Source: Lactobacillus helsingborgensis (GTDB lineage Bacteria; Bacillota; Bacilli; Lactobacillales; Lactobacillaceae). Taken from it: 64,000 nucleotides of DNA. The stretch is taken from contig NZ_KQ034046.1 of the NCBI RefSeq assembly GCF_000970855.1, positions 967,755 through 1,031,754 on the forward strand, given 5' to 3'. Below are positions 37,826 to 61,082 of the stretch, one piece after another. The notes beneath the pieces were generated by a model. It saw only the letters and a list, made by a program, of their open reading frames with translations. It had not been told where the DNA came from and searched no databases. Each line of letters starts with the position of its first letter. Positions within the stretch are counted from its first letter, which is position 1. The translations under genes and the position numbers were made by a program.

Positions 37826-38729
37826 TGTAATTACCCTCCTCATCAATTAAATTCGATGCTTTAGCTGTTTCAATAACACGGTTAGCTTTCTCAACAACTG
37901 GTTTGTCGACCATTTTACCGTTCATTGAAATAACGCCTGAGCCTTTTGCCTTTGCTTCTTGAATAGCATTTTGGACAGAAAGAGCATTTTCAATTTCTTC
38001 TTTAGTAGGGTTAAATACCTTGTTAACCATAGGTATTTGTCTTGGATTAACTAAAGACTTGCCATCATAACCAAGCTCATAAATATATTTTGTTTCGCGG
38101 TAGAATCCTTCAGTATCATTCATATTTGAAAATACAGTATCGAAGGCATAAACATCGGCTGCTCTAGCGGCTTGCAAGACCATGTTGCGGGCAAATTCAA
38201 GTTCACGCCCATCTGGATATCGGTGTGTGTGCATATCGGCAGTATAGTCTTCACCGGAAACAGCTAAGCCCATCATTAATGGGGTTGCAGTTGCAATTTC
38301 TGGAGCATTGAGAACACCTTTTGCACTCTCAATCGCTGCCATAACACCAATAGAGCCTTTTTGAATACCGTATTCTTCTTCCGCTTTTTCCATATCCGCC
38401 ACTAATTTTTTAATCATGGCGGCCGATTCAGTTTTAGGAAGACGAATAACATCTACTCCAGCGCGAACCATAGCTTTGACATCTTGGTCATAAAAGGGAG
38501 TGTCTTGACCATTAATTCTAACGACAATTTCAGCACCGCCAAAGTCAACTGTTTTAATAGCCTTAAATACTAACATTCTGGCTGCGTCTTTTTCAGTTAA
38601 TGAAACTGCATCTTCTAAATCCAGCATAATAGAGTCCGCTCCATAAATACCAGCGTCTTTAACCATTGCAGGATTATTACCTGGTACGAACATCATTGTT
38701 CGACGCAAACGATTTTTAACATAAGTCAT
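37815..38729 (-). CDS. citE: Citrate lyase beta subunit (citryl-CoA lyase)
   Basis: A 304-residue TIM-barrel of the HpcH/HpaI type that cleaves the citryl thioester into acetyl-CitD and oxaloacetate. The motifs [22 protein letters not shown] (metal site), [10 protein letters not shown] and [12 protein letters not shown] (catalytic glutamate) are clear. It is adjacent to citD without a gap. Confidence 0.97.
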
Positions 38730-39026
38730 TTATTGCAATACCTCCATTCTTGGTGCATCAGTAGTTTCAGTTGCTCTTTGCGCAGCCGCTAATGTTCTTG
38801 CAGCAATCACGCAGTCAAGCGCTCCTTTGTCAGTAGCCTTAACTTTTGCGTTAGTAATACCAAATTTATTAAGTGTTTCAGTTATCACCTTTTTAATTTG
38901 ATCACCGTATGATTTAGCTACCTCTGAATCCAGATCAACTTCAATCCCATTTTGACCAGCAGAGATCATAATCTGAATATCTGAAGATTCTAGTGTTCCT
39001 GCTACTCCAACAGTTTTAATTTCCAT
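38730..39026 (-). CDS. citD: Citrate lyase gamma subunit (acyl carrier)
   Basis: A 98-residue acyl carrier protein bearing the phosphoribosyl-dephospho-CoA group on a serine of the AGTLESSD motif (Ser14 by the usual numbering). The ATG at 39026 is used; a TTG 3 bases upstream is possible. It overlaps the end of citC by 11 bases. Confidence 0.95.
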   Translation of the reverse strand: MEIKTVGVAGTLESSDIQIMISAGQNGIEVDLDSEVAKSYGDQIKKVITETLNKFGITNAKVKATDKGALDCVIAARTLAAAQRATETTDAPRMEVLQ

Positions 39027-40071
39027 CAATGTTCATTCCTTTCTTGATTCTTTCTTGTAAAATTTGATAATTTTCATTTATAAAATTCATTGTAGTTGGT
39101 GGAACTAGAGTGGAAATATCTTTTAAATCACTATTTTTGATCAATTGGCGCACACTAGTTGCCGTAATTATTTTCTCGTTATCACGAAAGCGGTGCACGA
39201 TTTTAACAGCAATACTGGGACTAAGTATTTTTTGTAAACTTTGATTATAGAAATTAGTTGTCCTTGAAAATGGCTCAGTACCTAGATATCGTTTCTTAAT
39301 AGTTAATTCGGGTGCAATAATATTTTTAAAAATTAAAGCGTCAATCTCTGTTTGCGTTGTAATTAGTTCATCAGGTGACTTTAAAAAATAAGCTGGAAAT
39401 GTCGAGCGTGAAACTAGGTAATCTCCACCACTAACTACCACCACATTTTTAAATTTGGCAGTTCCTTTTTTTACCAAATCTATTCTTTCTGATGTTTTAA
39501 ATAAAGAAGCATCTGTAGCTACTACAAAAACATAAACTAAATCATTTTCACTACTTGCCAGTTGTACTAACTTTTGGTGGCCCAAAGTAAATGGATTAGC
39601 ATTCATAACAATTGCTGCAACTTCTTTTTGATTTTGGTTTTCAATTCTAGGTATTTTTGCTAAAAAGTCTTGAATACTTGGTGTTCCACTTTCTAAAAAA
39701 GCCGCAGTATCAGTATGAGCCAATTCATTAAAACCTAAATGGGCGAAACTAGAAGAATATTTTGCTTTGGTAAATACGAATGAATGATAAATTTTCTGAC
39801 TAAAAAGGTATTCTTGCAGAGCCGAAACTATTTGATTAAAACGTGCCCCGTGAACAGAATTATCATTTGACACAGCTATATATTTAAGAACTTTGCCTGC
39901 AATACTACCAGTTCCTACCAAATGGCCATCTTCATCTATTAAGCCAACAGTATGATCGAGGACGTCAACTTCGCGGGAGCTGAAATCTTTAATACCTTGA
40001 TTAATTAAGAAGTTTTCCCATCTTGCCTTCGTGTCTGGAAAAGTTAAATTAAGGTCTATAGTTTTATCCAT
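39016..40071 (-). CDS. citC: Citrate lyase ligase
   Basis: A 351-residue enzyme that acetylates the CitD prosthetic group with acetate and ATP to activate citrate lyase. An N-terminal GNAT-like segment (about residues 20-135) is followed by a cytidylyltransferase-like domain with NPFTLGHQKLV near residue 160. It is part of the run citC-D-E-F with overlaps or short gaps. Confidence 0.95.
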   Translation of the reverse strand: MDKTIDLNLTFPDTKARWENFLINQGIKDFSSREVDVLDHTVGLIDEDGHLVGTGSIAGKVLKYIAVSNDNSVHGARFNQIVSALQEYLFSQKIYHSFVFTKAKYSSSFAHLGFNELAHTDTAAFLESGTPSIQDFLAKIPRIENQNQKEVAAIVMNANPFTLGHQKLVQLASSENDLVYVFVVATDASLFKTSERIDLVKKGTAKFKNVVVVSGGDYLVSRSTFPAYFLKSPDELITTQTEIDALIFKNIIAPELTIKKRYLGTEPFSRTTNFYNQSLQKILSPSIAVKIVHRFRDNEKIITATSVRQLIKNSDLKDISTLVPPTTMNFINENYQILQERIKKGMNIDGN

Positions 40072-40091
40072 TTATTTGGTTCTCACTTTAG

Positions 40092-40886
40092 CTAAAATTT
40101 TTGCAAAAATTTCATAATTTCTTTATACATTTTCAAAGGCTGTTCCGCCTGAATTAAGTGACCACAGTTTGCTATTATTCCTGCGTAAATTTTAGGATTC
40201 AGTTCACTCATAGCATAGGCAAAATGATAATCAAAAAAGGGTGAATTTTGTCCTGCTAAAACGAGCATAGGAACTTTCAAGCTAATTAAAATGTCCCGCC
40301 AATCCTGCTCAGCATGATCTATTCGACAAAGATAATTTTCTTCAGCATTATACGGATATTTTTGGGCTTCAATTTTGGCCTTTTTAAACATCTCATCATT
40401 GATATGAGCAAAAATACCATTGCCCAGATCTGCCTTTAAATAATCCGGATAATTTTTCCAAGTTAGATCTTTAAATCCATAGTGCCAGGTGCTGTCTTGA
40501 ATCATTTTGGGAGGTTGATCTAAGTCAACAATTGCCTGCAATCTTTGAAAGCCAAATAGTGAAACATAAGCCCAAATGTTTGCGGCTCCCATGGAATTAC
40601 CAACAGCAATAATATTTTTTAAATCTAATCTGCTAATGAGCTCGGCTAAATCAGCTGCATGGCGACTAATACGTTGCCCCTTAAACGTTCTTTGAGAACG
40701 TCCCTGATTTCGAGGATCAATTATTATAAAGCGGTAATCTTCTGTGAAAAGCTTTACAGCCTCTTGCCATAATGTTGCAGAACTACCTATACCAGGAACT
40801 GCTAAAATAGGCTGACCACTTTTTAATGTATCGTAATAAGTTATTCGAATACCATCATTAGTTATAAAATTGCTTGCCTTAAGCAT
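40092..40886 (-). CDS. Alpha/beta hydrolase of unknown substrate in the cit operon
   Basis: A 264-residue alpha/beta-fold hydrolase. The nucleophile elbow is GNSMGA near residue 96, the oxyanion region LAVPGIGSSATLW, and the likely base histidine is in NCGHLIQAEQP near residue 247. An aspartate of the triad is probable in the LVLAGQNSPFFD region. It is embedded between citC (20-base gap) and the DASS transporter (no gap), so it is co-expressed with citrate genes. No citrate pathway step calls for such an enzyme. It could be an esterase or lactonase, and the substrate is unknown. Confidence 0.85.
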   Translation of the reverse strand: MLKASNFITNDGIRITYYDTLKSGQPILAVPGIGSSATLWQEAVKLFTEDYRFIIIDPRNQGRSQRTFKGQRISRHAADLAELISRLDLKNIIAVGNSMGAANIWAYVSLFGFQRLQAIVDLDQPPKMIQDSTWHYGFKDLTWKNYPDYLKADLGNGIFAHINDEMFKKAKIEAQKYPYNAEENYLCRIDHAEQDWRDILISLKVPMLVLAGQNSPFFDYHFAYAMSELNPKIYAGIIANCGHLIQAEQPLKMYKEIMKFLQKF

Positions 40887-42353
40887 TTACCAAATTCCAA
40901 TAACTTTCATCCATAAAGTGCCTATTACGCCGAAAATCAGTAAATAGAGAATTCCTAAAATAAAGTTATATTTCCACCATTCACTCTGCTTAATGTAACC
41001 AGTTGTAGCTAATATAGAGGCCGGTCCGTTAGCGTAGTGAGTGGTTGAAGCATTAATTGCCCCGGTAAACGCCAAGAGCATAGCTGATAATCCTAATGGA
41101 GCTCCTGTAGCAACAGCAACAGATAAAAATGGCAGGTATAATGCTGTTATATGTGCAGTACCACTGGCAAAGAAGTAGTGGGTGTAAAACATCAATATCA
41201 CTAAAACAGCTAATACTATTTGCCAGCTTATTCCGTGAAGACTAGTCTGAATAGTCTTGGAGAACCAGTCAATGAAGCCAAAGGAAATAAGTTTACTTGC
41301 CATAAATATTAAAATTGATAGCCAAATTAGAATGTTCCAAGCTCCAGTTTGGTTTAAAGCATCTTTCATAGTTAAGACGCCTGTTAATAGCAACAAGCCG
41401 ACAGCTAAAAAGGCTACAAAAGTAGAATCTAATTGAGGAATTTTGAAGATTCCGGATAAAACCCATAAAATAATAGCCAGCAAAAATACTATTGACATAA
41501 TCATTTCAGGCTTTGTCACTGGTCCCATTTTTGCTAAACGGTCACTGGCCCATTTTTTAGCATTGGGAGTTTCTTTAATTTCTGGAGGAAAAATTTTATA
41601 AATCACAACCGGAATAATAACAGTTGCAACTAGAACAGGAACTATTGCTGCTGTAAACCAGCTGATCCAGGTCATATTATAATTTTTCTGTGCCGCCATT
41701 TGAGAAGCAACCATATTAGGAGCAGCACCTGTAATAAACAGAGCAGTTGACAGAATGTTGGCATGGAAGGCAGTAAAACTAAGATAAGCTCCGATTTTCT
41801 TTCTTGAAGGATCGTTAGGATGAGAATCATAATCTTTAGAGATTGATTCAGTCACCGGCCAAACTACACCACCTGTACGTGCACTGTTTGATGGTATTAA
41901 AGCTCCTAAAACTAATTCCAAACCGGTAATTGCATAGCCGATACCAATGGACTTTTTACCAAATTTTTTAATCATCCAATACGCTATCCGATTACCTAAA
42001 CCGGTTTTACTAATACCATATGCCATGATAAAAGCCATAGCAATTAGCCAAGAAGCAGAATTACTAAAGGCGCTAAGAATACCAGTGGTTACTTTACCAG
42101 TTTTTGGATCTACAACATCTTTGATTGGAGCTAAACCAACTAAAACTGTCACTATCAGTCCAATCAAAGTAGTACCGCCTATGGGCAAAGGCTTTGTAAT
42201 ACAGCCAACAATAGTTGCTACAAAAACGGCAAACATCTCCCATGCGGGAGCAGACAAGCCAGCCGGACGCAAAGGCGTGATGCACCAAAGGATAACGCCA
42301 ATCACTAAAGGTAAAATAAAGCCCTTATAATTAACTTTTTCAAGTGTTTTCAT
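40887..42353 (-). CDS. DASS-family anion transporter, likely citrate/succinate antiporter
   Basis: A 488-residue membrane protein with 12 or so helices, of the divalent anion:Na+ symporter (DASS/CitT) family. Family signatures include SNSARTGG (first SNT-like motif, near residue 156) and a second half with the region around NASTTHYANGPA. CitT of Escherichia coli (487 residues) exchanges citrate for succinate. The surrounding genes make succinate from citrate, so the same exchange is inferred here. It overlaps neither neighbour but abuts the hydrolase gene. Confidence 0.88.
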   Translation of the reverse strand: MKTLEKVNYKGFILPLVIGVILWCITPLRPAGLSAPAWEMFAVFVATIVGCITKPLPIGGTTLIGLIVTVLVGLAPIKDVVDPKTGKVTTGILSAFSNSASWLIAMAFIMAYGISKTGLGNRIAYWMIKKFGKKSIGIGYAITGLELVLGALIPSNSARTGGVVWPVTESISKDYDSHPNDPSRKKIGAYLSFTAFHANILSTALFITGAAPNMVASQMAAQKNYNMTWISWFTAAIVPVLVATVIIPVVIYKIFPPEIKETPNAKKWASDRLAKMGPVTKPEMIMSIVFLLAIILWVLSGIFKIPQLDSTFVAFLAVGLLLLTGVLTMKDALNQTGAWNILIWLSILIFMASKLISFGFIDWFSKTIQTSLHGISWQIVLAVLVILMFYTHYFFASGTAHITALYLPFLSVAVATGAPLGLSAMLLAFTGAINASTTHYANGPASILATTGYIKQSEWWKYNFILGILYLLIFGVIGTLWMKVIGIW

Positions 42354-42371
42354 AGTAATTACCTATAATTT

Positions 42372-43076
42372 TTAATTTTCCGGACGATAAAAATCGTCGA
42401 TAATTTCATAATTCTTATTCTTTAATTCCTCATCAAGCCAATCTATATTTCCTGAACCATCATGAAAACTAGCAGCTTTTGCTTCATCTTTTTCATGAAA
42501 TTCCTGAACAATCGGCAACAATTCAGATGCTTCTTCCAAAGCGATTTTGATAACACCGTCAGCGTCACCTAAAATGACGTCACCGGGGTTAACACTGACG
42601 TTACCACAAGAAACCGGTACATTTATTTCTCCTGGACCTTCCTTGTAGGGACCGTCCGGAGTTGTACTTACAGCATAAATAGGCAAATCCCAGTTGCTTA
42701 AACTATCAATGTCTCGTATAGGTCCGTCAACAACTACACCAGCTACATGTCTTTGATCGCGCAGCCATGTCATCATTACTTCACCAATAACCGCCCTAGT
42801 ATTGTCATTTTCATTATCAATGACAACCACGTCGCCTTCGTGGCAATACTTTAAAGCCGCATAAATAGTTAAGTTATCACCGGGACGATTATGAACTGTG
42901 AAAGCTGGACCACACATTTCTTCATGTGGGTGCGACATCAGTCTGATTCTAGGCGCCATTGCACCTGTCCTATTCATACAGTCAGCTACATTTGATGAGG
43001 GCAGCTTTTTATATGCAGCAATTAATTCCTTTTGCGGAAGATTCCTTTGTAAAAAAATTCTTTTTCCAACCTGCAT
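42372..43076 (-). CDS. RraA-family protein, candidate oxaloacetate decarboxylase
   Basis: A 234-residue protein of the RraA / HMG-CHA aldolase family. The metal and substrate residues are in VVVDGPIRDID near residue 115-125 (catalytic Arg-Asp pair), with GEVMM earlier and GDVILGDADGV later. Class II pyruvate aldolases of this family also decarboxylate oxaloacetate. Its place between the dehydrogenase and the citrate carrier suggests it turns part of the oxaloacetate into pyruvate and CO2, in place of the usual mae or oad genes, which are absent. Confidence 0.85.
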   Translation of the reverse strand: MQVGKRIFLQRNLPQKELIAAYKKLPSSNVADCMNRTGAMAPRIRLMSHPHEEMCGPAFTVHNRPGDNLTIYAALKYCHEGDVVVIDNENDNTRAVIGEVMMTWLRDQRHVAGVVVDGPIRDIDSLSNWDLPIYAVSTTPDGPYKEGPGEINVPVSCGNVSVNPGDVILGDADGVIKIALEEASELLPIVQEFHEKDEAKAASFHDGSGNIDWLDEELKNKNYEIIDDFYRPEN

Positions 43077-43096
43077 TATTTATGCCTTCTTTTTAA

Positions 43097-44026
43097 TTAA
43101 TCTAAAGTGATATTATCTAGCACTTCCTGCATTTTGGTAGCCGAGTTCACCATCTTTGCCTTTTCAGGTTCTGAAAGTTCAGTTTCAATCACCTGACTGA
43201 CTCCAGACCCGTCGATTACTGCAGGAGTGCCTAAATAAAGATTGCTTTTAATACCATACTCACCATTAATTGGTGCAGATAGAGGCAAAGCAATTGAACG
43301 ATTAGTCAATATTGCAGTAACAATTTGCGTTAACATCATCGCAATGCCGTAAAATGTTGCACCCTTATTTTCAATGATTTTTCCACCTTTTTGACGAATA
43401 TTCAGTTCCACTTGGTCCAGAATATGATCATCAATATTAGCAAATTCTTTTAGTGATTTACCGCTAACAGTTGATTCATCAAAATTTTCAAAAGATGTAT
43501 CACCATGTTCGCCTAATACCATAGAATTAATTTCAGCTACAGGAACATTTAATCTCTTAGCTAAGTCTACTTTTAAACGAGCAGTGTCAAGCGAAGTTCC
43601 CGTACCTATTACCTTATTTTTAGGAAAGCCGGATAGTTTTTGGGTTAAAGTTGTCAATATATCAACTGGATTAGCAGAAACTAGGAAAATACCATCAAAG
43701 CCAGATTCGACTACTGGTTGAATGATACTTTTCAAGATGCTAACATTTTTATTCACAAGATCAAGCCGACTTTCTCCTGGCTTGCGGGGAACGCCTGCTG
43801 TAATCACAACCACAGCAGCATCTTTTGCATCGGAGTATTCACCAGAATGAATATTACACTCGCCTGTAAAAGGCAGTATATCTTCCAAATCCATTGAATC
43901 TCCCACCGGACGTTTCTTGAGCACATCACAGATTACTAACTCGTCAACACTAGTATGTTGCAGCAAATCATTTGCAAAAGTTGAACCTACAGCTCCGTCT
44001 CCAACCAATAATACTTTTTTATTCAT
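43097..44026 (-). CDS. mdh: Malate dehydrogenase (lactate/malate dehydrogenase fold)
   Basis: A 309-residue NAD-dependent enzyme. NAD motif GDGAVGS is at residues 9-15; catalytic residues D147, R150 and H174 (in GEHGDT) are in place. The loop VPRKPGESR has arginine at residue 81 where lactate dehydrogenases have glutamine (Gln102 in the usual numbering). That exchange is the classical switch to oxaloacetate. It therefore probably reduces oxaloacetate to malate. The ATG at 44026, with GAAAGGAAA 6 bases before, is preferred to an upstream start at 44065. First gene of the cit operon. Confidence 0.85.
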   Translation of the reverse strand: MNKKVLLVGDGAVGSTFANDLLQHTSVDELVICDVLKKRPVGDSMDLEDILPFTGECNIHSGEYSDAKDAAVVVITAGVPRKPGESRLDLVNKNVSILKSIIQPVVESGFDGIFLVSANPVDILTTLTQKLSGFPKNKVIGTGTSLDTARLKVDLAKRLNVPVAEINSMVLGEHGDTSFENFDESTVSGKSLKEFANIDDHILDQVELNIRQKGGKIIENKGATFYGIAMMLTQIVTAILTNRSIALPLSAPINGEYGIKSNLYLGTPAVIDGSGVSQVIETELSEPEKAKMVNSATKMQEVLDNITLD

Positions 44027-44056
44027 TAAGTCATTTCCTTTCGAATTTTTTAAAAA

Positions 44057-44070
44057 TGTAATCACTTACA
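44057..44070. promoter_or_regulatory. cre-like palindrome over the cit operon start region
   Basis: TGTAA and TTACA arms flank a 4-base centre. It fits the outer part of the CcpA cre consensus but lacks the central CG. It is 6 bases downstream of the -10 box, a place where CcpA binding would block transcription. This is a candidate only. Confidence 0.4.
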
Positions 44071-44075
44071 TCAAT

Positions 44076-44104
44076 ATTATAAATTTTATTCCCGTTATTT
44101 GCAA
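44076..44104 (-). promoter_or_regulatory. Promoter of the mdh-cit operon
   Basis: On the minus strand the -35 box is TTGCAA (44099-44104) and the -10 box TATAAT (44076-44081), with a 17-base spacer. It lies about 50 bases before the mdh start. The AT-rich repeats at 44095-44148 overlap the -35 box and extend upstream, as expected for an activated promoter. Confidence 0.75.
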
Positions 44105-44148
44105 TATTTAAAATAAATAATTTATTTTTTCAATTTTTTAAAATAAAA
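44095..44148 (-). promoter_or_regulatory. AT-rich repeated motif upstream of the cit promoter (candidate CitI sites)
   Basis: Two copies of CAAT-(A/T)TTT-AAAATAAA lie 29-30 bases apart (cores at 44102-44118 and 44131-44148). The same motif is found at the fumC promoter and, in part, upstream of citI. The right-hand copy has TTTATTTT and AAAATAAA arms, so it is an inverted repeat. Confidence 0.5.
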
Positions 44149-44149
44149 A

Positions 44150-44433
44150 CAGTCTTACATATTTAAAATTCGGTTTGTCAATAATGCAAAAATTAGTATT
44201 TTCGACATAGCGCTTATTTAGGAACCAAAAATAATAAAAAAAGCCCTTCGCCGATGCTAAACGACAAAGAACTTAAAATTTATTAAATATAATCTTATTT
44301 ATATAAAGCTATAATTTTAATAGACACATCAGTGCAAAACCACAGCTTACAAAAGTGGAATCTAGCAAAATACCTAACAATATTGCCAATGGCTGACAAT
44401 TCTTTTTCAAACACTAATTTAGTTAAATTATAG
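44150..44433. other. Intergenic region between mdh promoter and frdA
   Basis: It contains the frdA terminator (44234-44274). The remainder (44275-44433 and 44150-44233) is AT-rich and shows no open frame or recognisable RNA element. Confidence 0.5.
44234..44274 (-). terminator. Terminator of the fumC-frdA operon
   Basis: On the minus strand AAGTTCTTTGTCG can pair over 13 bases with CGGCGAAGGGCTT, counting G-U pairs, and is followed by seven T. It separates the fumC-frdA transcript from the mdh-cit promoter. Confidence 0.85.
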
Positions 44434-45828
44434 TTATTGGTTTTTGACGAACTTGCTCATTTGTATTCCTGCTTGCCTACCAAAAATGACTGTTTCAGCA
44501 ATCGAGTTGCCACCAATTCGGTTATTTCCGTGTAATCCACCTGAAACTTCTCCCGCAGCATAGAGTCCTTTAATTATGTTGCCATCTGTATCATAAACTT
44601 CGGTTTGGGGATTTATATGGATACCACCCATAGTATAGTGAATGGCCGGGTTAATATGAATTGCAAAGAATGGTCCCTGCGCAATTTTATGCTCCATTCC
44701 CGTTGATCTGCCAAATTCTTTATCTGTTTTATTTGTGACAGACTCATTCCAATTAGTAATAGTTTCGTTCAAGTTGGAAGCTGTGACACCAATATTTTGA
44801 GCTAGATCAGAAATTGATTCTCCATGACTAACCAATCCTACGTGATCATAAAATTCAACAGCAGTAAAGTTATTTCTAATACCTTGATCGAAAATCAAAA
44901 AAGCGCCGTTTTCATTTAAGTTGCTAATTGCGTCAGAAACAATTTTACGTGTACTTAACTCGTTGACGAATCTTTTACCAGATTTGTTAACTAGGATAGC
45001 TCCTTCTCCTCTTAAGCCTTCTCCTATCAAGTAGACGTGGTCACTATCAGTTTGTGCAGTTGGATGTACTTGAATAAAATCCATTTGCTCCAGCTGTGCA
45101 TCAATTTGACCGGCAAGCTTTAAACCATCGCCAGTAGCACCGGGCTGATTCGTAGTCTTATAATTTACAAGGTCAGGACGATATTTTTTAATTAATTCTT
45201 TAGATGAACCAAAGCCACCTGAAGCTAAAAGAATAGCGCTTGCACTCACTTTTACTTGTCCATTCAGAGTATCAACCTGAACACCAGTTACTTGCTGTTT
45301 GTTATCTTGTAAAAGCTTAGTTACTTTTGCATTATTAAAAACTGGTATTTTATCTTCTTGTATTTGCTTTAAGGCTCCAGTTACTAAATAATTGCCTACC
45401 GGTTCCATTGAAGCAGGACGATGAGCTCTCTTTTTGCCCATCCCACCAGTAATAGTTAAATTAGTTAGCTCTATACCGTGATCCATTAGCCAATCTATTG
45501 CAAGAGCAGAATGATCGACAAAATAGCGTAGAAGTTCACGGTCATTCATCAATCCTCCGCCTTTGAGAGTTTCACGGTAAAAATCTTCTTTATCATCTAT
45601 GATTCCCTGTTTTAGTTGAACAAGACTTTCAGAAGCATTCATTCCAGAAGAAGCCCTGTTTGTGTTTCCACCTAAATCAGAATTCTTTTCAAAGACAGCA
45701 ACATTCAATCCTAATTCATGAGCCTGAATAGCTGCAGTTAAGCCGGCACCCCCTGCACCGATTATAATTGCGTCGTAACTTTCTTGTATTTCAGAAGCCT
45801 TATTAGGCGTAAAAACGAATTTACCCAT
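44434..45828 (-). CDS. frdA: Soluble fumarate reductase flavoprotein
   Basis: A 464-residue FAD protein of the flavocytochrome c fumarate reductase family. The FAD motif GAGGAGLTAA is near residue 22. Catalytic positions known from Shewanella Fcc3 are kept: histidine in QVHPT, arginine in ELSTRKI (proton donor), histidine in HYTMGGI and arginine in NNRIGGN. There is no signal peptide, haem domain or FMN-binding domain, so it is cytoplasmic. It would reduce fumarate to succinate, with an electron donor not evident here. It is 30 bases downstream of fumC. Confidence 0.93.
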   Translation of the reverse strand: MGKFVFTPNKASEIQESYDAIIIGAGGAGLTAAIQAHELGLNVAVFEKNSDLGGNTNRASSGMNASESLVQLKQGIIDDKEDFYRETLKGGGLMNDRELLRYFVDHSALAIDWLMDHGIELTNLTITGGMGKKRAHRPASMEPVGNYLVTGALKQIQEDKIPVFNNAKVTKLLQDNKQQVTGVQVDTLNGQVKVSASAILLASGGFGSSKELIKKYRPDLVNYKTTNQPGATGDGLKLAGQIDAQLEQMDFIQVHPTAQTDSDHVYLIGEGLRGEGAILVNKSGKRFVNELSTRKIVSDAISNLNENGAFLIFDQGIRNNFTAVEFYDHVGLVSHGESISDLAQNIGVTASNLNETITNWNESVTNKTDKEFGRSTGMEHKIAQGPFFAIHINPAIHYTMGGIHINPQTEVYDTDGNIIKGLYAAGEVSGGLHGNNRIGGNSIAETVIFGRQAGIQMSKFVKNQ

Positions 45829-45858
45829 TGATTTCTCCTCTACAGAAATTTAAAAGAT

Positions 45859-47262
45859 TTATTTTTCAGGATTAGTCTGAGATATATTGGTCATTTCCAT
45901 ATAATCCATCCATTCATCATATTCCTTTTCAGTTAATTTGCCACTTTTGAGTGCTGCTTCTTTAAGCGTTGTTCCTTCTTTATCCGCAGTCTGTGCAATC
46001 TTAGCAGCTGCGTGATAGCCAATATGAGGTGACAAGGCAGTCACTGTCATCAAAGAACTCTCAAGCAGATCGTCCATTTTTGCAGCATTAACAGTCAAAC
46101 CAGCAATCATTTTATCAGCAAAGCCTGTAATAGTTCCAGTTAAAATATCACATGAATCTAAAAACGCGGTGATCATAACTGTTTTGTAGACATTCATTTC
46201 AAAATTTCCTTGTGAACAGGCAAAAGTAATTGTAGTATCATTGCCAAAGACTTTCGCAGCGGCCATTGTTACCGCCTCAGCCTGAGTAGGATTAACTTTG
46301 CCAGGCATAATCGAAGAACCTGGTTCATTAGCGGGGATATTAAGTTCGTGATAGCCTGCTCTGGGACCTGATGCCAAGAATCTTATATCTTGGGCTATCT
46401 TAAACATGTCAGCAGCCAAGGTTTTTAAAGCACCATGGACAACATCTATGCCAGAATGGTGAGCTAAACCCCAAAACTTATTGGTATTAACTTTAAAATC
46501 ATGGCCGTAGACTTTAGACAGTTTGTCAGCAATTTTGACAGTCATTCCCGGTGCAGCATTGAGGCCTGTCCCAACAGCTGTGCCACCAATTGCAAGTTCA
46601 TATAATGTTGGCTTAAGTTCTTTGATATAGGATAAATCATGTTTTAAAGCTGAAATATAGCCAGAAACCTCTTGACCGAAAGTTATCGGAGTAGCATCTT
46701 GTAAATGAGTACGGCCAACTTTGACGGTTTTCCAATACTTGTCCTGCTTAATTTTTAGTTCGTCAATTAAGTGTTGCACGGCAGGTTCAAGCTTATCTAA
46801 AGCTTCAACTGCAACAATATTCATTGCTGTGGGATATGTATCGTTTGAAGATTGTCCTCTGTTAACGTCATCATTGGGTAAAATATCCAAATTTGGATGC
46901 ATCTTGTTAGCTAGGTTAGCTACTACTTCGTTAACGTTCATATTGCTCTGAGTACCAGAACCGGTTTGTAATACGTGTAAAGGAAAATCTTGACGCAATT
47001 CATGATCATCTAATTTTAATAGTTGATCAATCGCTTCCTCAATAGCTTGCCCTTTTTCTACTGGTTCATCGCCGACTTCTACATTCGATTCAGCTGCAGC
47101 TTTTTTTAAATGTAAAAAAGCACGAATAATTGCAAGGGGCATTAATTCACCACTGGGAAAATTGTTACGACTTCTTTCAGTTTGCGGACCCCACAGTGCA
47201 TCTTTAGGAATTTTAACAGGGCCAATTGTATCACTTTCAACACGATATTCTTCTTTACTCAT
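45859..47262 (-). CDS. fumC: Fumarase, class II
   Basis: A 467-residue fumarase that interconverts malate and fumarate. The family signature GSSIMPGKVNPTQAE is present, as are QTGSGTQSNMNVNEV and GRTHLQDATP. The start at 47262 follows AAGGAGATC at good spacing; an upstream ATG at 47280 lies before that site. Here it would run from malate to fumarate to feed the fumarate reductase next to it. Confidence 0.96.
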   Translation of the reverse strand: MSKEEYRVESDTIGPVKIPKDALWGPQTERSRNNFPSGELMPLAIIRAFLHLKKAAAESNVEVGDEPVEKGQAIEEAIDQLLKLDDHELRQDFPLHVLQTGSGTQSNMNVNEVVANLANKMHPNLDILPNDDVNRGQSSNDTYPTAMNIVAVEALDKLEPAVQHLIDELKIKQDKYWKTVKVGRTHLQDATPITFGQEVSGYISALKHDLSYIKELKPTLYELAIGGTAVGTGLNAAPGMTVKIADKLSKVYGHDFKVNTNKFWGLAHHSGIDVVHGALKTLAADMFKIAQDIRFLASGPRAGYHELNIPANEPGSSIMPGKVNPTQAEAVTMAAAKVFGNDTTITFACSQGNFEMNVYKTVMITAFLDSCDILTGTITGFADKMIAGLTVNAAKMDDLLESSLMTVTALSPHIGYHAAAKIAQTADKEGTTLKEAALKSGKLTEKEYDEWMDYMEMTNISQTNPEK

Positions 47263-47326
47263 ACTAGATCTCCTTTTCAAATGTTAGTATTTTAGCTATT
47301 AAAAGCAGTAATATTCTCTTGCACTC

Positions 47327-54930: not shown

Positions 54931-56346
54931 TTACCACATGCCGATAACTTTAGTCCAAACCAGACCGCCGCCTAACCAGATGATGTTAAGTACAACACCA
55001 ATTATGGCGCTTAGTTTCCACCAATCTTTGTTAGAAACATAGCCTGTTGAAGAAAGCAAAGCGGCAGGACCTGCCGAATAGCTTGAAGTTGACAAGTATA
55101 AAGAACCGTCCAAAGCTAGCATTAACGCTGCCATCATAGGTGGCACTCCGGCGCCGATCGCAATTGAGAGAAATCCTGCATATAGAGCAGAAATTTGTGT
55201 AGAAACACTTGGGAATAAATAGTGGAGGTAGAAGTAAACCAAGAATAAGATTACCAGTACTAAAACCCAGTTCATACCATGAAGTGCACTACCTAAAGTC
55301 TTTGAGAACCAAGGGAAAAAGCCCAAAGTCATTAATTTTTGAGACATCAACATGATAATTGAAAGCCAAGTTAAGATGTTCCAAGCAAAACTTTGACCTA
55401 AAATATCCTTAACATTGATGACGCCAAATACCAATAGTAATGCAACTGCAATAAAGCTGACTAAAGTAGCGTCAATGCCAAACTTAGAGCCTACTAACCA
55501 TAATGCAACTGACAGGACAAAAACCACACCCATAATTTTTTCTGCAGCTGTCATTTTGCCTAATTCTTGTAATTTTTTGTCTGCCCAAGCATGAGCATTA
55601 GGTGTTTCTTTGATCTTAGGAGGGTAAATTTTATATAGAATAAAAGGTACTAATATTAAGGAAATTATGCCTGGTACGATTGCAGCTACAAACCATTGCA
55701 TCCAGGAAATAGTAACGTTTTGGGTCTTTGCTATTCCTAATGCCACCATGTTACCGGCTAAACCAGTTAGAAACATGGTGGATGTAACGATGTTAACTTC
55801 GTATTCTGTAAAGACCAGGAATGAACCCATGTCACGCTCAGTTCCCTTTTTAGGATCTGAACCCATTTCTCTTGATAAGTTATCAATAATTGGGTACATA
55901 ATACCGTTAACACGAGCGTTGTTACTTGGGATACCAACTGCCAGAACAGTCTCCACTAGGGATAAGGCATAAGCCAAACCTAAAGTTCTCTTGCCAAAAG
56001 TTTTGACAAAGAAGTAGGCAATTCTTTTACCAAGACCCGATTTAATAAAGCCGGCCGCCATAAACATACACATAGCGACCATCCATGCCGTGGAATTACC
56101 AAAGCCGGCAGTGACTTCTTCCATCTTAAAAATACCGGTTAATGTAGCAATTACCACCGCTATTATTGTAGTTGCCATCATTGGTAATGGTTTAGTTACA
56201 CAGGCAATTATAGTTGCAATAAATATGGCGAATAGGTGCCAGGCTTGAACGTTAATTGCCGCTGGTTTTAATGGAGTTAACAGCCATAAGCCAATGCCAA
56301 TAGCTAGTGGTAAAACCCACTTTTTCCATTGAATTTTATCTGACAT
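54931..56346 (-). CDS. DASS-family anion transporter (second copy)
   Basis: A 471-residue membrane protein of the DASS/CitT family, paralogous to 40887-42353 (shared KWVLPLAIGIGLWLLTPLKP-like start, SNNARVNG signature, and a TSSYSAGPA region in place of TTHYANGPA). The ATG at 56346 follows AAGGAGAATAAAGAA; an upstream frame to 56394 lacks a site. It starts 4 bases after the flavoprotein stop. The differing second signature suggests a different dicarboxylate or other anion, probably the substrate or product of the two reductases. Confidence 0.9.
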   Translation of the reverse strand: MSDKIQWKKWVLPLAIGIGLWLLTPLKPAAINVQAWHLFAIFIATIIACVTKPLPMMATTIIAVVIATLTGIFKMEEVTAGFGNSTAWMVAMCMFMAAGFIKSGLGKRIAYFFVKTFGKRTLGLAYALSLVETVLAVGIPSNNARVNGIMYPIIDNLSREMGSDPKKGTERDMGSFLVFTEYEVNIVTSTMFLTGLAGNMVALGIAKTQNVTISWMQWFVAAIVPGIISLILVPFILYKIYPPKIKETPNAHAWADKKLQELGKMTAAEKIMGVVFVLSVALWLVGSKFGIDATLVSFIAVALLLVFGVINVKDILGQSFAWNILTWLSIIMLMSQKLMTLGFFPWFSKTLGSALHGMNWVLVLVILFLVYFYLHYLFPSVSTQISALYAGFLSIAIGAGVPPMMAALMLALDGSLYLSTSSYSAGPAALLSSTGYVSNKDWWKLSAIIGVVLNIIWLGGGLVWTKVIGMW

Positions 56347-56350
56347 TTCT

Positions 56351-58186
56351 TTATTCTCCTTTAGAGCTATTTTGTGCTTTCTTAATCGCCGCATTCACGG
56401 CTTCCTTTAAAGCATTAGTTGTGGTAGAAGCTCCTGAAACTGCATCAACATTCGTAGAATTATTACTTACCATTTCCTGGGGTATACGGTCAATGGCTAC
56501 AGCGCCAATTCCTTCCGTTTCATGATTTTCTAGTACTTCAATTTTTTTGATTTCATTATCAAAATAGGTCACGCGAACCAAAATCCTACCGCCAATACCT
56601 GCTTCAGAAGATCCTAGAAACTGATTTTGTCCCAGCTCAATTTGATCGTCCTTTTCACCATCCAAAAGATCATTAATTCGCGGCAACTTCTTCGTTAAAT
56701 TAATCGAATCTTCAATTGGCTCTAACTTGGCAGCATTTTCTCCAGCAATTTTGCCAAAAATCAAGCATTCAGCTAAGTTGCCACCGCCCTGATAACGATT
56801 GACGCACATTCCGCCAAGCTCACCAGCTGTGTAGAGACGTTTGATTGGTTGATTGTTGACATCAAGTACACGGGCTAACTCATCATGTTCTGGTCCACCT
56901 TGGGTATTAAGCACTGCGGGAGCCAATTTAACTGCATGGACGTCATCTTTTAAATCGAAACTAGTCATTGACTCAGGTGCACGACCAAATTCCATATCCT
57001 TGCCGTTAGTGGCAAACTCGTTAAATTGCGAAACAGTATTTTCCAGATTTGCGGTCGGTACATTCATTTTTTGAGCTAATTCAGCCAGTGAACCGGCACT
57101 AACAACCTTGTCAAAGAACTTACCGTACTTGAGTTTTCCTTGTTTCTGTTCTAAGACAAACTTTTGATATTGCTGATTATCAAAGACCAACCAAGCATTG
57201 TCGTAAGCGTGAGGCAATAGATAGTCTCCATGTTCAGCGATATGACCATGTCTGAATTTGGCATCTTCACGCATAAAGCGAGTGCCGTCGTCTGCCACCG
57301 CAAAAATCGCACCTGATTTGACATTTTGCCAGCCGCTAACTTGCCGACCACGCTCATTTTCACCTTCAGCAATTACATAGCTGGGGACGATGCCTAATGA
57401 CTCATAATTGCTCATGTGCCACATTTTTGCTCCAACTTCAGCAGTCATTTTAATCCCGTCACCCTTATTATAGAGAGTGCCCAGCGGAGTTAATTTAGTG
57501 ACGTGCAGGTAATCTTGCTGCATCTGCTCATTATTTTCAAATCCACCTGTAGCAACAATTACTCCTTTGCGAGCATGAATATAATATTGTTTCTTATTAC
57601 GATTAATAATTACTCCAGCTATTTCACCAGTTGCCTCGTCCTGCAATAAATGCTCTGCTTTAGAATTAAGCCAGACATCAATGTTGGCAGCATTTTTGAC
57701 TACTTGAGCACGAATTACTTTCCATAGTTCAGCATCAAAGTCTTGATTATGAACCAGAGCAAAATCAAAGGTTTCAGAGCCGCGATATTCAGGATACTCA
57801 CATAAATTCTTTTTCTTTGCTAAATGGTCACCCGGTTGATTATCACGTGACCAGATAAAAGGATCAATACCAAAATACTTCTTAAAATATTGCGGCATAT
57901 TAACAAAGCCATCAAGATAAACAGCCATTGTTTTCTGATCAAAATTATATGGCGCTGCCAGCTGCTCATAATATTCAGCAATCTTCTTTCTATCATGTGC
58001 CATAGCAACATGCTGTGCTGAATAACGGGTGTTACCACCCTCATGACCATAAGGAGCAGCGTCAACTAATAAGACTTGAGCACCATTTTCTGCCGCAAAA
58101 CGAGCTGCCGTGCCTCCGGCTCCACCGAAACCTAAAACGACTACATCATACACACCATTCCACTTAGTTTTTTCGTTGATTTTCAT
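56351..58186 (-). CDS. FAD- and FMN-binding reductase of unknown acceptor
   Basis: A 611-residue two-domain flavoprotein. The N-terminal FAD domain has GFGGAGGTAARFAAENGA near residue 18. The C-terminal FMN-binding domain (about residues 520-600) ends with DAVSGAST, the site where ApbE attaches FMN to a Thr/Ser. The fumarate-reductase HYTMGG and NRIGGN segments are replaced by LNTQGG and RYQGGG, so fumarate is an unlikely acceptor. There is no signal peptide. It is 12 bases downstream of its paralogue and next to the DASS carrier. Confidence 0.9.
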   Translation of the reverse strand: MKINEKTKWNGVYDVVVLGFGGAGGTAARFAAENGAQVLLVDAAPYGHEGGNTRYSAQHVAMAHDRKKIAEYYEQLAAPYNFDQKTMAVYLDGFVNMPQYFKKYFGIDPFIWSRDNQPGDHLAKKKNLCEYPEYRGSETFDFALVHNQDFDAELWKVIRAQVVKNAANIDVWLNSKAEHLLQDEATGEIAGVIINRNKKQYYIHARKGVIVATGGFENNEQMQQDYLHVTKLTPLGTLYNKGDGIKMTAEVGAKMWHMSNYESLGIVPSYVIAEGENERGRQVSGWQNVKSGAIFAVADDGTRFMREDAKFRHGHIAEHGDYLLPHAYDNAWLVFDNQQYQKFVLEQKQGKLKYGKFFDKVVSAGSLAELAQKMNVPTANLENTVSQFNEFATNGKDMEFGRAPESMTSFDLKDDVHAVKLAPAVLNTQGGPEHDELARVLDVNNQPIKRLYTAGELGGMCVNRYQGGGNLAECLIFGKIAGENAAKLEPIEDSINLTKKLPRINDLLDGEKDDQIELGQNQFLGSSEAGIGGRILVRVTYFDNEIKKIEVLENHETEGIGAVAIDRIPQEMVSNNSTNVDAVSGASTTTNALKEAVNAAIKKAQNSSKGE

Positions 58187-58198
58187 TTTTGCACTTCT

Positions 58199-59995
58199 TT
58201 ACTGCTTTTCAGCGTTCTCAATTGCTTGGTTGACCGCTTCTTTAAAAGCAGCACTAGTTGTACTTGCGCCACTGACCGCATCAACCTCTGTAGTTTGTTT
58301 TTCAATCATTTCATTAGTTAGAACGGGAATTGCTTTACCTCCCAAATAAGGCGTTTCTTTTTCTTGCAGTGTTTCAATTTGAGAAATCTTATCACCTGAC
58401 ATCGTGACGCGTACCACAATTGGGACATCATTAATGCCATTTTCACTTATTCCAATCCCCTGATTAGGTCCAGATTCAAAATCGGTTGAAGAAGCATGAG
58501 CATCAGATTTTAGATCAGGGTTTTCTGAAGCACCTGTAACTACATCAACTTCAGCCATTTTTCTTTTTGGCCACGCAGCATTTTCTCCTGCAATTTTGCC
58601 AGAAATTAACAAATCAGCAATACTGTTTGCACCAATATATTTGGTAGCAAAAATATCTCCTAATTCACCGGCTTCATATAAATGAGGAATAACATTATTC
58701 TCCATGTCCAAAACTTCGCAATTTTCATTACGACGAGCGCCACCATGCGTGTGCAGAATGTTGTGGCGAATTGGGATAGCATAATATGGGCCTGCACCAA
58801 AAGCACGCATTGTTTCAATTTTGCGATTTAAAAACATATCGCGCTTTTTTTCATTGACTAAAAAGTTAAAATCACTGACAGCTTCGGCCAATTTTGGTGC
58901 GGCAATCTTGTCAGCTAATTCGGCAATAGTTTCAGCTTTTATTGCATAGGTAATCAGGCTCTTAATTTGTTCAGCCTTATCTGAGTCATCATGAGCTAGT
59001 TGCTCAAATTGCCTTTGATCCATGATGATATGTGGATGATTTTGATTAGGCTGCATAATCCAGTTGCCGTGGTTATATTTGTAACCATGACGGTCTTCTT
59101 CGTCTTCACGGTAATACCGCGTGCCGTCATCGCCAGCAACGAAAATACTACCATTAAATAAGCTTTTCCAGTTGATCATATAGGCAAATTTTTCTCTTGG
59201 CGCGCCTTCTCTTAAAGAAAAACCATGTGAATCATAGTTAGACATATGCCACAGTCTAGCGCCAGCTTCAACTGCCAAATCAATTCCTTTACCTTGATTA
59301 TACAAAGTACCAATTGGAGCTAAAGAACCTTGACCTAAAAATGTTTGAACCATATCTTGGTTATTTTCAAAGCCGCCACATGATAGAACTACACCATTTC
59401 TGGCAGCCACATTTCTATTTATACCTTGATGTTTAATTTGCACACCTAAAATGGTTTTAGTGTTAGGATCCTGAATTAAGTGTTGTGCGGGACTTTCAAA
59501 CCAAACATCAATTTTGTCTAAACGCTCGTAAACTTTTTTACGTAATAATTTCCAGAATCCGCCATTATACATACCAGCAGTCATGCTTTGTGAGCGCATT
59601 GTTTCTGCATGCTTGTATTCCGGATATTCTCCTTGAGGTCTTCTCCCAGTATATTGTGCTTCAATGCCAAAATATTTTTGAGAGTACTCCTTCATCTTCA
59701 AAACATTATTGACAAAAGCGTCTAAATCTTTTGGATCATACTTAAAGGGATAATAAGTTTGCTTATAATATTCACGGAGATCAGCAAAATTATCGCTCCA
59801 AGCAAAAGCACCACCAGCATACCTGGTATTGCCACCTTCATGACCTTCGGGAGCTGAGTCAATGAGGAGAACGTGCGCATTATTATCTGCCGCAAATCTT
59901 GCTGCACCGGCACCAGCTCCGCCGAATCCGACGACAATTACGTCGTAAACGGCGTCCCATTTGAGAGTTGAATCGTAGATCAAATTTTTCACCAT
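58199..59995 (-). CDS. FAD- and FMN-binding reductase of unknown acceptor (paralogue)
   Basis: A 598-residue paralogue of the previous gene. FAD motif GFGGAGAGAARFAADNNA lies near residue 22; FMN attachment motif DAVSGAST lies near residue 580. The fumarate-type histidine and arginine are not kept (LHTHGG and KYIGAN). The start is uncertain (GTG, ATG or GTG within 9 bases). First gene of the operon, divergent from the LysR gene. Hydroxycinnamate and urocanate reductases have a similar architecture; no specific substrate can be named. Confidence 0.9.
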   Translation of the reverse strand: MVKNLIYDSTLKWDAVYDVIVVGFGGAGAGAARFAADNNAHVLLIDSAPEGHEGGNTRYAGGAFAWSDNFADLREYYKQTYYPFKYDPKDLDAFVNNVLKMKEYSQKYFGIEAQYTGRRPQGEYPEYKHAETMRSQSMTAGMYNGGFWKLLRKKVYERLDKIDVWFESPAQHLIQDPNTKTILGVQIKHQGINRNVAARNGVVLSCGGFENNQDMVQTFLGQGSLAPIGTLYNQGKGIDLAVEAGARLWHMSNYDSHGFSLREGAPREKFAYMINWKSLFNGSIFVAGDDGTRYYREDEEDRHGYKYNHGNWIMQPNQNHPHIIMDQRQFEQLAHDDSDKAEQIKSLITYAIKAETIAELADKIAAPKLAEAVSDFNFLVNEKKRDMFLNRKIETMRAFGAGPYYAIPIRHNILHTHGGARRNENCEVLDMENNVIPHLYEAGELGDIFATKYIGANSIADLLISGKIAGENAAWPKRKMAEVDVVTGASENPDLKSDAHASSTDFESGPNQGIGISENGINDVPIVVRVTMSGDKISQIETLQEKETPYLGGKAIPVLTNEMIEKQTTEVDAVSGASTTSAAFKEAVNQAIENAEKQ

Positions 59996-60087
59996 CACTT
60001 TCTTATAAACTATTCTTAACCCAAATATATCCTCACCAACTTTTTAAGTCTAATTAAATTTTTTGAAAAAATATTCTAGTTTCATAA

Positions 60088-60104
60088 TACAAAATACTAT
60101 TGTA
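60088..60104. promoter_or_regulatory. Inverted repeat in the divergent LysR/reductase intergenic region
   Basis: TACAA and TTGTA arms are spaced by 7 bases, a size suited to a LysR-type site. It is near the middle of the 193-base gap between the divergent genes. Candidate only. Confidence 0.35.
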
Positions 60105-60188
60105 GCAACTTGTTATTGTACATTAAAGTTAAATTTAATATAATTTAATCAGATATATTTATAAATTTTATTTATTTAGGAAGTACTC

Positions 60189-61082
60189 ATGAATGAAAAA
60201 GACTTATTATATTTTTGTAAATTAGTCGAAACTGGTAACTATACCACTACAGCCGCATTCTTTGACGTTACCCAGCCCACAATTTCCATGGCAGTGAAGC
60301 GGTTGGCAGATAAGTTCGATGATCCACTAATATTGCAAAAAAATCGCAAAAGTAAAATAACTTTGACTGATGCCGGCGACTTACTTTATAAAAGAGCAAA
60401 AATTCTATTGCAAGATATCGCCAGCATCAATTATGATGTGATGCATGCCAGTGACAAAAAAATTCGGCTTGCCTTTTCTGGGGAAGCCGGTAGCCTTTAC
60501 ATCGCCGATATTATACAAAAATTTTATCAAGCAAATATTGCTAATTTAATTGAATCTAGAATCGAAAGATCGGCTAACGCATTCTCTGATTTAACTGATG
60601 GCACTGTAGATGTGGCGATATATTCGTGGATGGTTCCTATTAATGATCCCGAATATTTTATTCATAACCTGCAAAGAACTGAACTAGTCATTATTACCAG
60701 TACGAGCGACAAGTGGCGGGATGTCCACCAAATTAATGCATCCGACTTACGCAACCGCAAGTTTGTGGCTCGTAAAAGAGGCTATTTAACTAGAGAATGC
60801 CTGGAACAGGAAGCAAAATTAGGCGATTTTACGCCACAGATTTCATACACAGCTACTACAATGAGAATGATGATTGAATTAGTTAAACGCAATGTAGGGA
60901 TTGCTCTTGCTATGGAAAGCAGTCTAAAAGAGGTTTCTGATATTCACGTCATTCGGTTAAAACCAGGGCAAAAATTGTGGGCATACATGCAGATAGCAAT
61001 GAGAAAGAGCTTTATACCTAACAAATATCAGCGCAAAGGGATCGAAATACTGCGACATTTTAAACCAGATGAATATCAATAA
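60189..61082 (+). CDS. LysR-family transcriptional regulator
   Basis: A 297-residue regulator. The N-terminal winged helix (about residues 1-60) contains YTTTAAFFDVTQPTISMAVK. The periplasmic-binding-like effector domain covers about residues 85-290. It is divergent from the two-reductase operon, so it probably controls it in response to the substrate. A GGAAG site precedes the start. Confidence 0.93.
   Translation: MNEKDLLYFCKLVETGNYTTTAAFFDVTQPTISMAVKRLADKFDDPLILQKNRKSKITLTDAGDLLYKRAKILLQDIASINYDVMHASDKKIRLAFSGEAGSLYIADIIQKFYQANIANLIESRIERSANAFSDLTDGTVDVAIYSWMVPINDPEYFIHNLQRTELVIITSTSDKWRDVHQINASDLRNRKFVARKRGYLTRECLEQEAKLGDFTPQISYTATTMRMMIELVKRNVGIALAMESSLKEVSDIHVIRLKPGQKLWAYMQIAMRKSFIPNKYQRKGIEILRHFKPDEYQ

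Follow-up and report, generated by a model that had tools for sequence, protein, structure and literature searches.

A locus in the genome of a bee-gut-type Lactobacillus, within a 64,000-nucleotide stretch of DNA (hereafter the window), raises the question of which substrate is served by a unit joining two flavoproteins, an anion carrier, and a divergent regulator. Among named species, Lactobacillus laiwuensis is the nearest relative. The coordinates, strands, and gene types given in a first-pass annotation were borne out by Pfam and NCBIfam. Specifically, the minus strand encodes a DASS-family carrier, predicted to be of the exchanger (DASS-E) type (54931..56346; 471 amino acids), which matches TIGR00785 at 362 bits (cut-off 199); comparison with relatives places its start at 56346, and the reading frame as listed begins at 56394. 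The same strand carries FR1 (56351..58186; 611 amino acids) and FR2 (58199..59998; up to 599 amino acids), the latter starting either with GTG at 59998 or with the TTG at 59983 that relatives use, while a LysR-type regulator with Pfam LysR_substrate and HTH_1 domains is encoded divergently on the plus strand (60189..61082). Pfam, AF2 models, fold searches with Foldseek, and tree analysis indicate that FR1 and FR2 are probable ene-reductases; each consists of a FAD_binding_2 domain (E-values of 1.2e-35 and 1.5e-29, respectively) followed by a C-terminal FMN_bind domain (2.5e-15 and 2.4e-15). Their identity of 38.5% over 589 positions agrees with the earlier view of them as paralogues, and their description as cytoplasmic would follow from the lack of any signal sequence apparent by eye. 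No RNA family was found at Rfam gathering thresholds between positions 53000 and 62000. Glycerol genes (aquaporin, DhaMLK) adjoin the unit but lie near it in some relatives only (L080, L085, L107, L111), and are taken as neighbours rather than parts of it.

With moderate confidence, we propose an electron sink under LysR control, fed by NAD(P)H, in which FR1 and FR2 reduce one or more unsaturated acids other than fumarate that are imported by the exchanger-type DASS carrier. This proposal draws on the gene set, the conserved carrier pairing, the domains, the active-site changes, the exchanger residues, and the FMN_red fusions of relatives, all of them read from sequence.

That the acceptors are unsaturated acids other than fumarate, as the first-pass annotation suggested, is supported both by the active sites and by a separate citrate-fumarate cluster in the window. 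In both FR1 and FR2, the alignment has Leu in place of the substrate His of fumarate reductase (the leading H of HYTMGG/HHTMGG) and Tyr in place of the Arg (NRIGGN), and the flanking residues differ (LNTQGG..YQGGGN in FR1, LHTHGG..YIGANS in FR2). The claim that both positions are altered therefore holds, whereas the claim that they are altered differently in each protein does not, as only the neighbours differ; a reading by eye of the FR1 Arg column as Gln was dropped, the column holding Tyr in both proteins. Leu is present in 80 of 86 aligned rows and Tyr in all 86, making the pair the signature of a wide family rather than a trait unique to FR1 and FR2, and both changes are found in 35/35 rows of the FR1 and FR2 clades. 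Both proteins carry an R-H-G motif alongside Leu/Tyr, and R312 (81/86 rows) is a candidate for the catalytic Arg402 of flavocytochrome c3. That it aligns one residue later rather than exactly counts against the proposal, and its position is not decided by the models, which have stretches of pLDDT under 50. His and Arg are kept in HcrB, in L099, and in a canonical HYTMGG/NRIGGN fumarate reductase of the window (44434-45828), which lies 9 kb from the unit in a cluster with citrate lyase, a fumarase-like gene, and this genome's orthologue of LaINDY (40887-42353; 80% identical). It is very unlikely that FR1 and FR2 serve as further fumarate reductases, supplied by an exchanger of C4-dicarboxylates that brings fumarate in and succinate out. 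Such a role would accord with the superfamily and fold common to FR1, FR2, and fumarate reductases, and with the exchange of succinate and alpha-ketoglutarate described for LaINDY in passages of PMC7553777, but it is rejected as the main reading given the loss of His and Arg throughout both clades, the canonical enzyme, fumarase-like protein, and LaINDY orthologue housed in a separate cluster, and the changed substrate motifs of the unit's DASS carrier.

These motifs are best viewed against LaINDY itself, the DASS-E dicarboxylate exchanger of L. acidophilus, which is the closest solved structure (6wtw) and is 44% identical to the unit's carrier over 469 positions, the two falling in separate clades. 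The exchanger residues of LaINDY named in passages of PMC7553777 are kept in the unit's DASS clade, where R159 and H392, the cationic residues in two Na+ sites that mark the DASS-E type, are found in 27/27 rows, as is E or D at position 146. In contrast, the LaINDY substrate motifs SNS and SGT plus His401 are not those of the clade: S157 is replaced by N (24 rows) or I (3), G398 by V (20) or I (7), and H401 by Q in all 27, while position 399, T in LaINDY, holds S (17), A (6), T (3), or L (1). Together these comparisons suggest a carrier of the exchanger type whose substrate site differs from that of LaINDY.

The arrangement of carrier and reductase is conserved well beyond this genome. Among the matches listed from 397 genomes of the family, with up to four candidates scored in each, 32 of 34 close DASS homologues (71% identity or more) have an FR1- or FR2-like gene no further than 1.5 kb away, which argues that the layout is not due to chance; the remaining two are on contigs for which no such gene is listed. 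One comparison used 120 rows of at least 540 amino acids. The tree was built from rows sharing at least 33% identity with FR1 or FR2, together with two outgroups; near-copies (93% or more) and a single broken row, L171_8407, were removed, leaving 88. Of the 53 rows that fall in neither the FR1 nor the FR2 clade, 51 lack DASS, indicating that the pairing with the carrier is specific, the DASS label here using a 5.5-kb limit such that L082_3977, another paralogue near the unit, is labelled as DASS-bearing. FR1 and FR2 fall as separate lineages, and their origin by a recent tandem duplication is rejected (AU p = 0.00015, from a quick tree with the clade named after the tree had been seen). As DASS copies linked to FR1, to FR2, or to both are intermixed in one clade, the carrier appears to be the common element. 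The LysR-FR2-DASS arrangement is also present on L. plantarum plasmids, and only the FR2 module was seen there, the best plasmid match to FR1 among those listed being 46% identical. Counting against the electron sink is locus L086, in which an FR2 orthologue (66%) adjoins a CitMHS-type permease rather than DASS.

A literature search found nothing on a DASS carrier accompanying these reductases, nor on the conserved unit, most subscription journals lying outside its scope. While the kind of enzyme is known, the carrier pairing and the substrate appear to be undescribed. The earlier suggestion of an undescribed anion-fed electron sink may thus stand as regards the unit, which is conserved and on which the searched literature is silent, but not as regards the enzymes.

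How electrons would reach the substrate is suggested by the cofactor domains. The sequence V-D-A-V-S-G-A-S is found within FMN_bind of both proteins, and covalent FMN attachment is predicted from this motif at D581-A-V-S-G-A-S-T588 of FR1 (56423..56446, minus strand) and V572-D-A-V-S-G-A-S579 of FR2 (58262..58285, minus strand), the former on the basis of row conservation (D581, G585, and A586 in 86/86 rows, with S or T at position 587 in all 86) and the latter of Pfam and alignment. Both predicted sites, together with ApbE in the same genome, are features of ApbE-flavinylated proteins; of the two ApbE genes of the host, one (L106) lacks an evident signal sequence by eye and is close to two FMN_red genes. 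Among the 78 loci listed, 17 have an FMN_red fusion and 10 have ApbE no more than three genes away, the FMN_red domain being confirmed by Pfam in 3/3 fused relatives tested. HcrB, which combines domains of the FMN_red, FMN_bind, and FAD_binding_2 types, needs NADH and FMN according to passages of a review (PMC10295242). Electrons may pass from NAD(P)H through an FMN reductase, provided by FMN_red proteins encoded elsewhere in the genome, to the FMN that a cytosolic ApbE would attach covalently to the C-terminal domain, and thence to FAD and the substrate. No electron-donor gene is present in the unit, which counts against this explanation.

The fold leaves room for the opposite direction. AF2 models of FR1 (mean pLDDT 84; residues 262-266 under 50) and FR2 (mean pLDDT 76; residues 298-300 and 305-312 under 50) have urocanate reductase and flavocytochrome c3 as their first Foldseek matches, yet VIA places ketosteroid and cyclohexanone dehydrogenases level with the reductases, and TcuA is the top NCBIfam match of FR2 and the third of FR1, all below cut-off. 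The fold common to dehydrogenases and the TcuA match mean that the physiological direction could be oxidation, FR1 and FR2 forming a catabolic unit that oxidises a saturated acid, as TcuA does tricarballylate, and passes electrons through FMN and FMN_red to NAD+. We regard such a unit as highly improbable, since an FMN domain with fusion to an NAD(P)H:FMN reductase is the arrangement of NADH-driven HcrB, no catabolic gene was recognised in the unit, and lactobacilli are fermenters needing electron acceptors.

Under the electron-sink proposal, the DASS carrier would bring in an unsaturated organic anion and probably release the reduced product in return, and FR1 and FR2 would reduce C=C bonds of one anion, or of two related anions sharing the carrier, with regeneration of NAD+ during fermentation as the gain. 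As substrates, we rank small unsaturated dicarboxylates or tricarboxylates (fumarate excepted) first and hydroxycinnamate-like acids second. More tentatively, two or more ene-reductase lineages, probably three, may each have become associated separately with an exchanger of new specificity for precursor and product. The outcome in lactobacilli would be a small module resembling respiration, carried in part on plasmids, that takes up the unsaturated acid, releases the reduced one, and oxidises NADH within the cell. Where both reductases accompany one carrier, their targets could be two isomers of a single imported acid or two of its double bonds in succession.

The unit would presumably be induced by its substrate. 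Intergenic alignment reveals a candidate LysR operator, the palindrome ATAAA-N5-TTTATAA (60159..60175, no strand assigned), which is present in 8/8 aligned LysR/FR2 intergenic regions and in at most 2/8 in 2000 Markov-shuffled sets, the motif having been chosen after the alignment was seen. A candidate lysR promoter, TGTACA-16-TATAAT (60117..60144, plus strand; 10/12 matches), has -10 columns that are invariant in 8/8 intergenic regions, with promoter-type matches in the region no commoner (18) than in shuffled sequence (mean 19).

Many of the FAD/FMN reductases in lactobacilli lack an assigned substrate, and for one subgroup the unit offers a firm point of entry: its dedicated carrier has a specificity open to separate measurement, which both reductase lineages must suit, its regulator comes with a candidate operator, and a version of it is found on plasmids. 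Identifying the anion would reveal the compound, from plant or host, that serves these bacteria as an electron acceptor.

Comparison with known systems places FR1 and FR2 among several relatives. With flavocytochrome c3 and urocanate reductase they have the fold of the FAD domain in common, but Leu and Tyr replace the substrate His and Arg, FMN_bind is at the C-terminus, and no haem domain is among the Pfam matches. With HcrB, represented by a locus (L191) that we take to be the L. plantarum HcrAB locus (lp_1424/lp_1425) from its HcrA-HcrB-small-gene layout, they have the three domain types in common, and a LysR-like gene adjoins, by eye, as in the unit. However, the order in HcrB is FMN_red-FMN_bind-FAD rather than FAD-FMN_bind, identity is 24%, and HcrB keeps canonical HHTMGG/NRLGGN; membership of FR1 and FR2 in the HcrB group is rejected on these three grounds. 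The first-pass annotation described hydroxycinnamate reductase genes as unpaired with DASS, which holds for L191 (no DASS in 15 kb) but not for L194 of the same genome, where an FR1 relative (54%) adjoins DASS at a position that we infer to be near the record of lp_0055.

Another close system is Par1 of Furfurilactobacillus, after which we name the wide Leu/Tyr family Par1-like by inference. L118, a relative from F. milii with 48% identity to FR1, has FAD_binding_2 then C-terminal FMN_bind, as do FR1 and FR2, and the same LNTQGG/YQGGGN/RHGH signature as FR1; deletion of par1 in F. rossiae is reported to abolish hydroxycinnamate reduction (review, PMC10295242, in part). Three pollen phenolamides were, in passages of PMC5726620, depleted only with bee-gut Firm-5 bacteria. 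FR1 and FR2 might accordingly convert p-coumaric, caffeic, ferulic, or pollen phenolamide-derived acids to phenylpropionic acids, as Par1, with DASS exchanging these aromatic acids. We consider this unlikely, if with an appreciable chance of being correct: the same passages of the review report the L. plantarum par1 homologues lp_0055 and lp_0952 as unresponsive to p-coumarate, and those of two other strains as unresponsive to other hydroxycinnamates; DASS adjoins none of the 12 rows that surround F. milii in the tree; and the solved carriers of this DASS branch are, in passages of PMC7553777, dicarboxylate carriers. Identification of Par1 by elimination in F. milii FUA3583 failed, three FMN_bind proteins being present there. 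Unlike the unit, L118 and its neighbour L119 have no DASS within three genes, the nearest F. milii DASS (G061:C35; 51% identical) being about 9 kb off on apparently the same contig. FR1 and FR2 probably belong to the same family as Par1, FR2 bearing its own signature (LHTHGG/KYxGANS) in place of the LNTQGG/YQGGGN of L118 and FR1.

The unit comprises three minus-strand genes separated by small gaps, encoding the probable ene-reductases FR2 (58199-59998) and FR1 (56351-58186) and a carrier of the DASS anion family (54931-56346), together with a divergent LysR gene (60189-61082), and resides in a 2.02 Mb genome of the Lactobacillaceae. Both flavoproteins carry FAD_binding_2 and C-terminal FMN_bind domains (Pfam), while among the best 25 of their 36 NCBIfam matches none reaches its own cut-off. 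Of the named genomes among the matches listed, that of the bee gut species Lactobacillus laiwuensis (strain F551-2) carries the most similar unit, with identities of 96% (FR1), 98% (DASS), 98% (FR2) and 99% (LysR). Eight LysR/FR2 intergenic regions each contain a single copy of the palindrome ATAAA-N5-TTTATAA (60159-60175 in the window), a candidate LysR operator, which in 2000 Markov-shuffled sets is present in at most two of eight regions, a comparison in which the pattern was picked after inspection of the alignment and the eight relatives are non-independent.

The gene unit and its pairing with a carrier are real and conserved, and the enzyme type is already known. When 397 family genomes were queried with the DASS sequence, scoring at most four candidates per genome, 34 of the matches listed showed 71-100% identity, the next reaching at most 54%, and an FR1- or FR2-like gene lies within 1.5 kb of 32 of these 34. 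Among 20 chosen loci examined at full length for gene content, FR1, FR2 and DASS occur together in seven, FR2 with DASS in five and an FR1-type gene with DASS in five; one combines FR2 with a CitMHS-type permease, and two are without DASS. At locus L086 (5594-8733), an FR2 orthologue (66%) is partnered by a CitMHS/Na_H_antiporter-type permease, with no DASS gene. Where FR1 is separate from FR2 it frequently has its own LysR gene, 27-32% identical to that of the window (loci L082-L085, L087 and L091).

FR1 and FR2 are 38.5% identical to one another, and each shares about 25% identity with the fumarate reductase encoded in the window and 24% with HcrB, the hydroxycinnamate reductase of L. plantarum. 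In a quick tree of 88 rows they fall into different supported clades (35 rows, 33 with DASS), and a tree constrained to unite these rows is rejected (p-AU 0.00015). Beyond these clades 51 of 53 rows are without DASS, one of the two exceptions being L153_2111, a third reductase lineage that adjoins an 83% identical DASS gene. The carrier tree does not separate DASS copies by partner, those found with FR1, with FR2 or with both being interspersed, so a single carrier clade has joined different reductases.

AlphaFold models of FR1 and FR2 (mean pLDDT 84 and 76, respectively) yielded urocanate reductase and flavocytochrome c3 as top Foldseek matches, and in VIA on the FR1 model ketosteroid and cyclohexanone dehydrogenases tie with the reductases in Z score. 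Because reductases and dehydrogenases share it, the predicted fold points to a flavin carbon-carbon redox enzyme whose exact kind it does not distinguish. The active site was aligned across 86 family rows with three references, namely the window's fumarate reductase (44434-45828; HYTMGG/NRIGGN), the canonical His/Arg row L099, and HcrB; the roles of the substrate His and Arg are those of the flavocytochrome c3 literature. In FR1, Leu426 and Tyr465 replace these residues, and the alignment reveals the identical exchange in FR2, with Leu at the His column in 80/86 family rows and Tyr at the Arg column in all 86. The first-pass annotation had both positions changed, and differently in each protein; the change stands, but the exchange is the same, and it is the clade motifs that differ, L-N-T-Q and Y-Q (19/19 FR1-clade rows) versus L-H-T-H and Y-[ILV] (16/16 FR2-clade rows). 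PDB titles among the Foldseek matches name His505, His365, Arg402, Glu378 and Arg381. Trp286, present in 35/35 FR1- and FR2-clade rows and 65/86 family rows, may replace Glu378 when anchored on the shared G-A-I, the alignment placing it one position off. R312, H313 and G314 are conserved in 81, 82 and 86 of the 86 family rows, and R312, which aligns one residue from Arg402, is a candidate proton donor.

The nearest solved structure to the unit's carrier is LaINDY, the DASS exchanger of L. acidophilus (6wtw). According to the available text of PMC7553777, Arg159 and His392 occupy the sodium sites in DASS exchangers, and both are kept in 27/27 rows of the unit's clade, in which position 146 is Glu (19/27) or Asp (8/27). 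Unlike LaINDY, these 27 carriers have Asn (24) or Ile (3) for Ser157, Val (20) or Ile (7) for Gly398, and Gln (27) for His401. A second DASS gene of the window (40887-42353), 80% identical to LaINDY and with the identical residue at 10/10 compared positions, lies within a citrate-to-succinate cluster (36287-47280) that also includes citF, a citE-like gene (barely under cut-off), a citrate lyase ligase gene, RraA/oxaloacetate-decarboxylase-like and lactate/malate dehydrogenase-like genes, the canonical, flavocytochrome c-type fumarate reductase gene and a fumarase-like gene. The genome thus has two carrier-reductase sets, one serving the citrate-fumarate branch and a second in which carrier and reductases are altered; that the unit handles a different substrate, and does so by exchange, is argued mainly from this contrast.

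Small unsaturated di- or tricarboxylates are favoured as substrate by the predicted dicarboxylate-type exchanger, and aromatic enoic acids by the proposed family link to Par1, the phenolic acid reductase of Furfurilactobacillus. Three pollen phenolamides are reported to be depleted only with Firm-5 bacteria of the bee gut (PMC5726620); four bee Lactobacillus species are reported to consume citrate and malate, and on pollen citrate lyase genes are raised in two species and glycerol genes in three (PMC8456714); the available portions of both papers contain no mention of the FR1/FR2/DASS unit. On comparative evidence, the best fit is a non-fumarate, exchanger-fed electron sink, much as first proposed.

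The unit itself contains no electron donor gene. Among the matches listed, loci of named relatives show an FMN_red fusion in 17/78 and ApbE at most three genes away in 10/78, and FMN_red is N-terminal in 3/3 fused relatives examined from other genomes (Pfam). Two ApbE genes are present in the host genome. At L105 (4175-8396), an ApbE lipoprotein accompanies a double FMN_bind lipoprotein and what we take to be an NDH-2-like protein, the lipoprotein names and extracellular-electron-transfer-like character of the locus likewise being presumed; at L106, an FMN_red gene pair is followed, after one intervening gene, by an ApbE gene whose product shows no evident signal sequence on inspection by eye. 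Electrons would thereby pass from NAD(P)H via FMN_red to the FMN domain, FAD and substrate.

The LysR-FR2-DASS module is also found on L. plantarum plasmids, FR2 being about 60% identical in 14 of the best 15 rows (241 records matched). Two such plasmids, L228 (NZ_CP116402.1) and L229 (NC_021226.2), both with FR2 at about 60%, are typed as mobilizable; transposase genes lie on either side of the module in one, and an IS256 transposase gene follows it in the other.

Other flavoproteins occur in the same genomes. In the host (L100:4817-8316), an FMN_bind and FAD protein is encoded next to genes for shikimate dehydrogenase and 3-dehydroquinate dehydratase, and is similarly placed, with ApbE, in L. 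plantarum (L192:5743-10706), possibly as a reductase for a quinate/shikimate-derived acid. The host further has a FAD_binding_2 flavoprotein cluster (L101-L102, C3:308000-336000; at least five matches in C3:314980-331460), whose gene order resembles that of other bee-type Lactobacillus loci (e.g., L128, L131, L133-L135, L137).

For comparison with characterized systems, the L. plantarum locus L191 was taken as hcr because its gene set (a 210-aa FMN_red protein, an 812-aa FMN_red-FMN_bind-FAD protein and a 202-aa protein) resembles the lp_1422 to lp_1426 list in the available text of PMC10295242; its LysR-like gene (by eye) is upstream and divergent, a mismatch with the placement of hcrR downstream of hcrB in that source. 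The proposal that hydroxycinnamate reductase genes are not paired with DASS agrees with L191, where no DASS match was found at the locus, and is qualified by L194 in the same genome, at which an FR1 relative (54%) with FMN_red fused in front is divergent from DASS and a LysR gene truncated at the contig end. As the same text reports, deletion of par1 in F. rossiae abolishes hydroxycinnamate reduction, and the par1 homologues lp_0055 and lp_0952 are unresponsive to p-coumarate (PMC10295242). We infer that the L194 protein is lp_0055, and that FR1 and FR2 belong to a Par1-like family.
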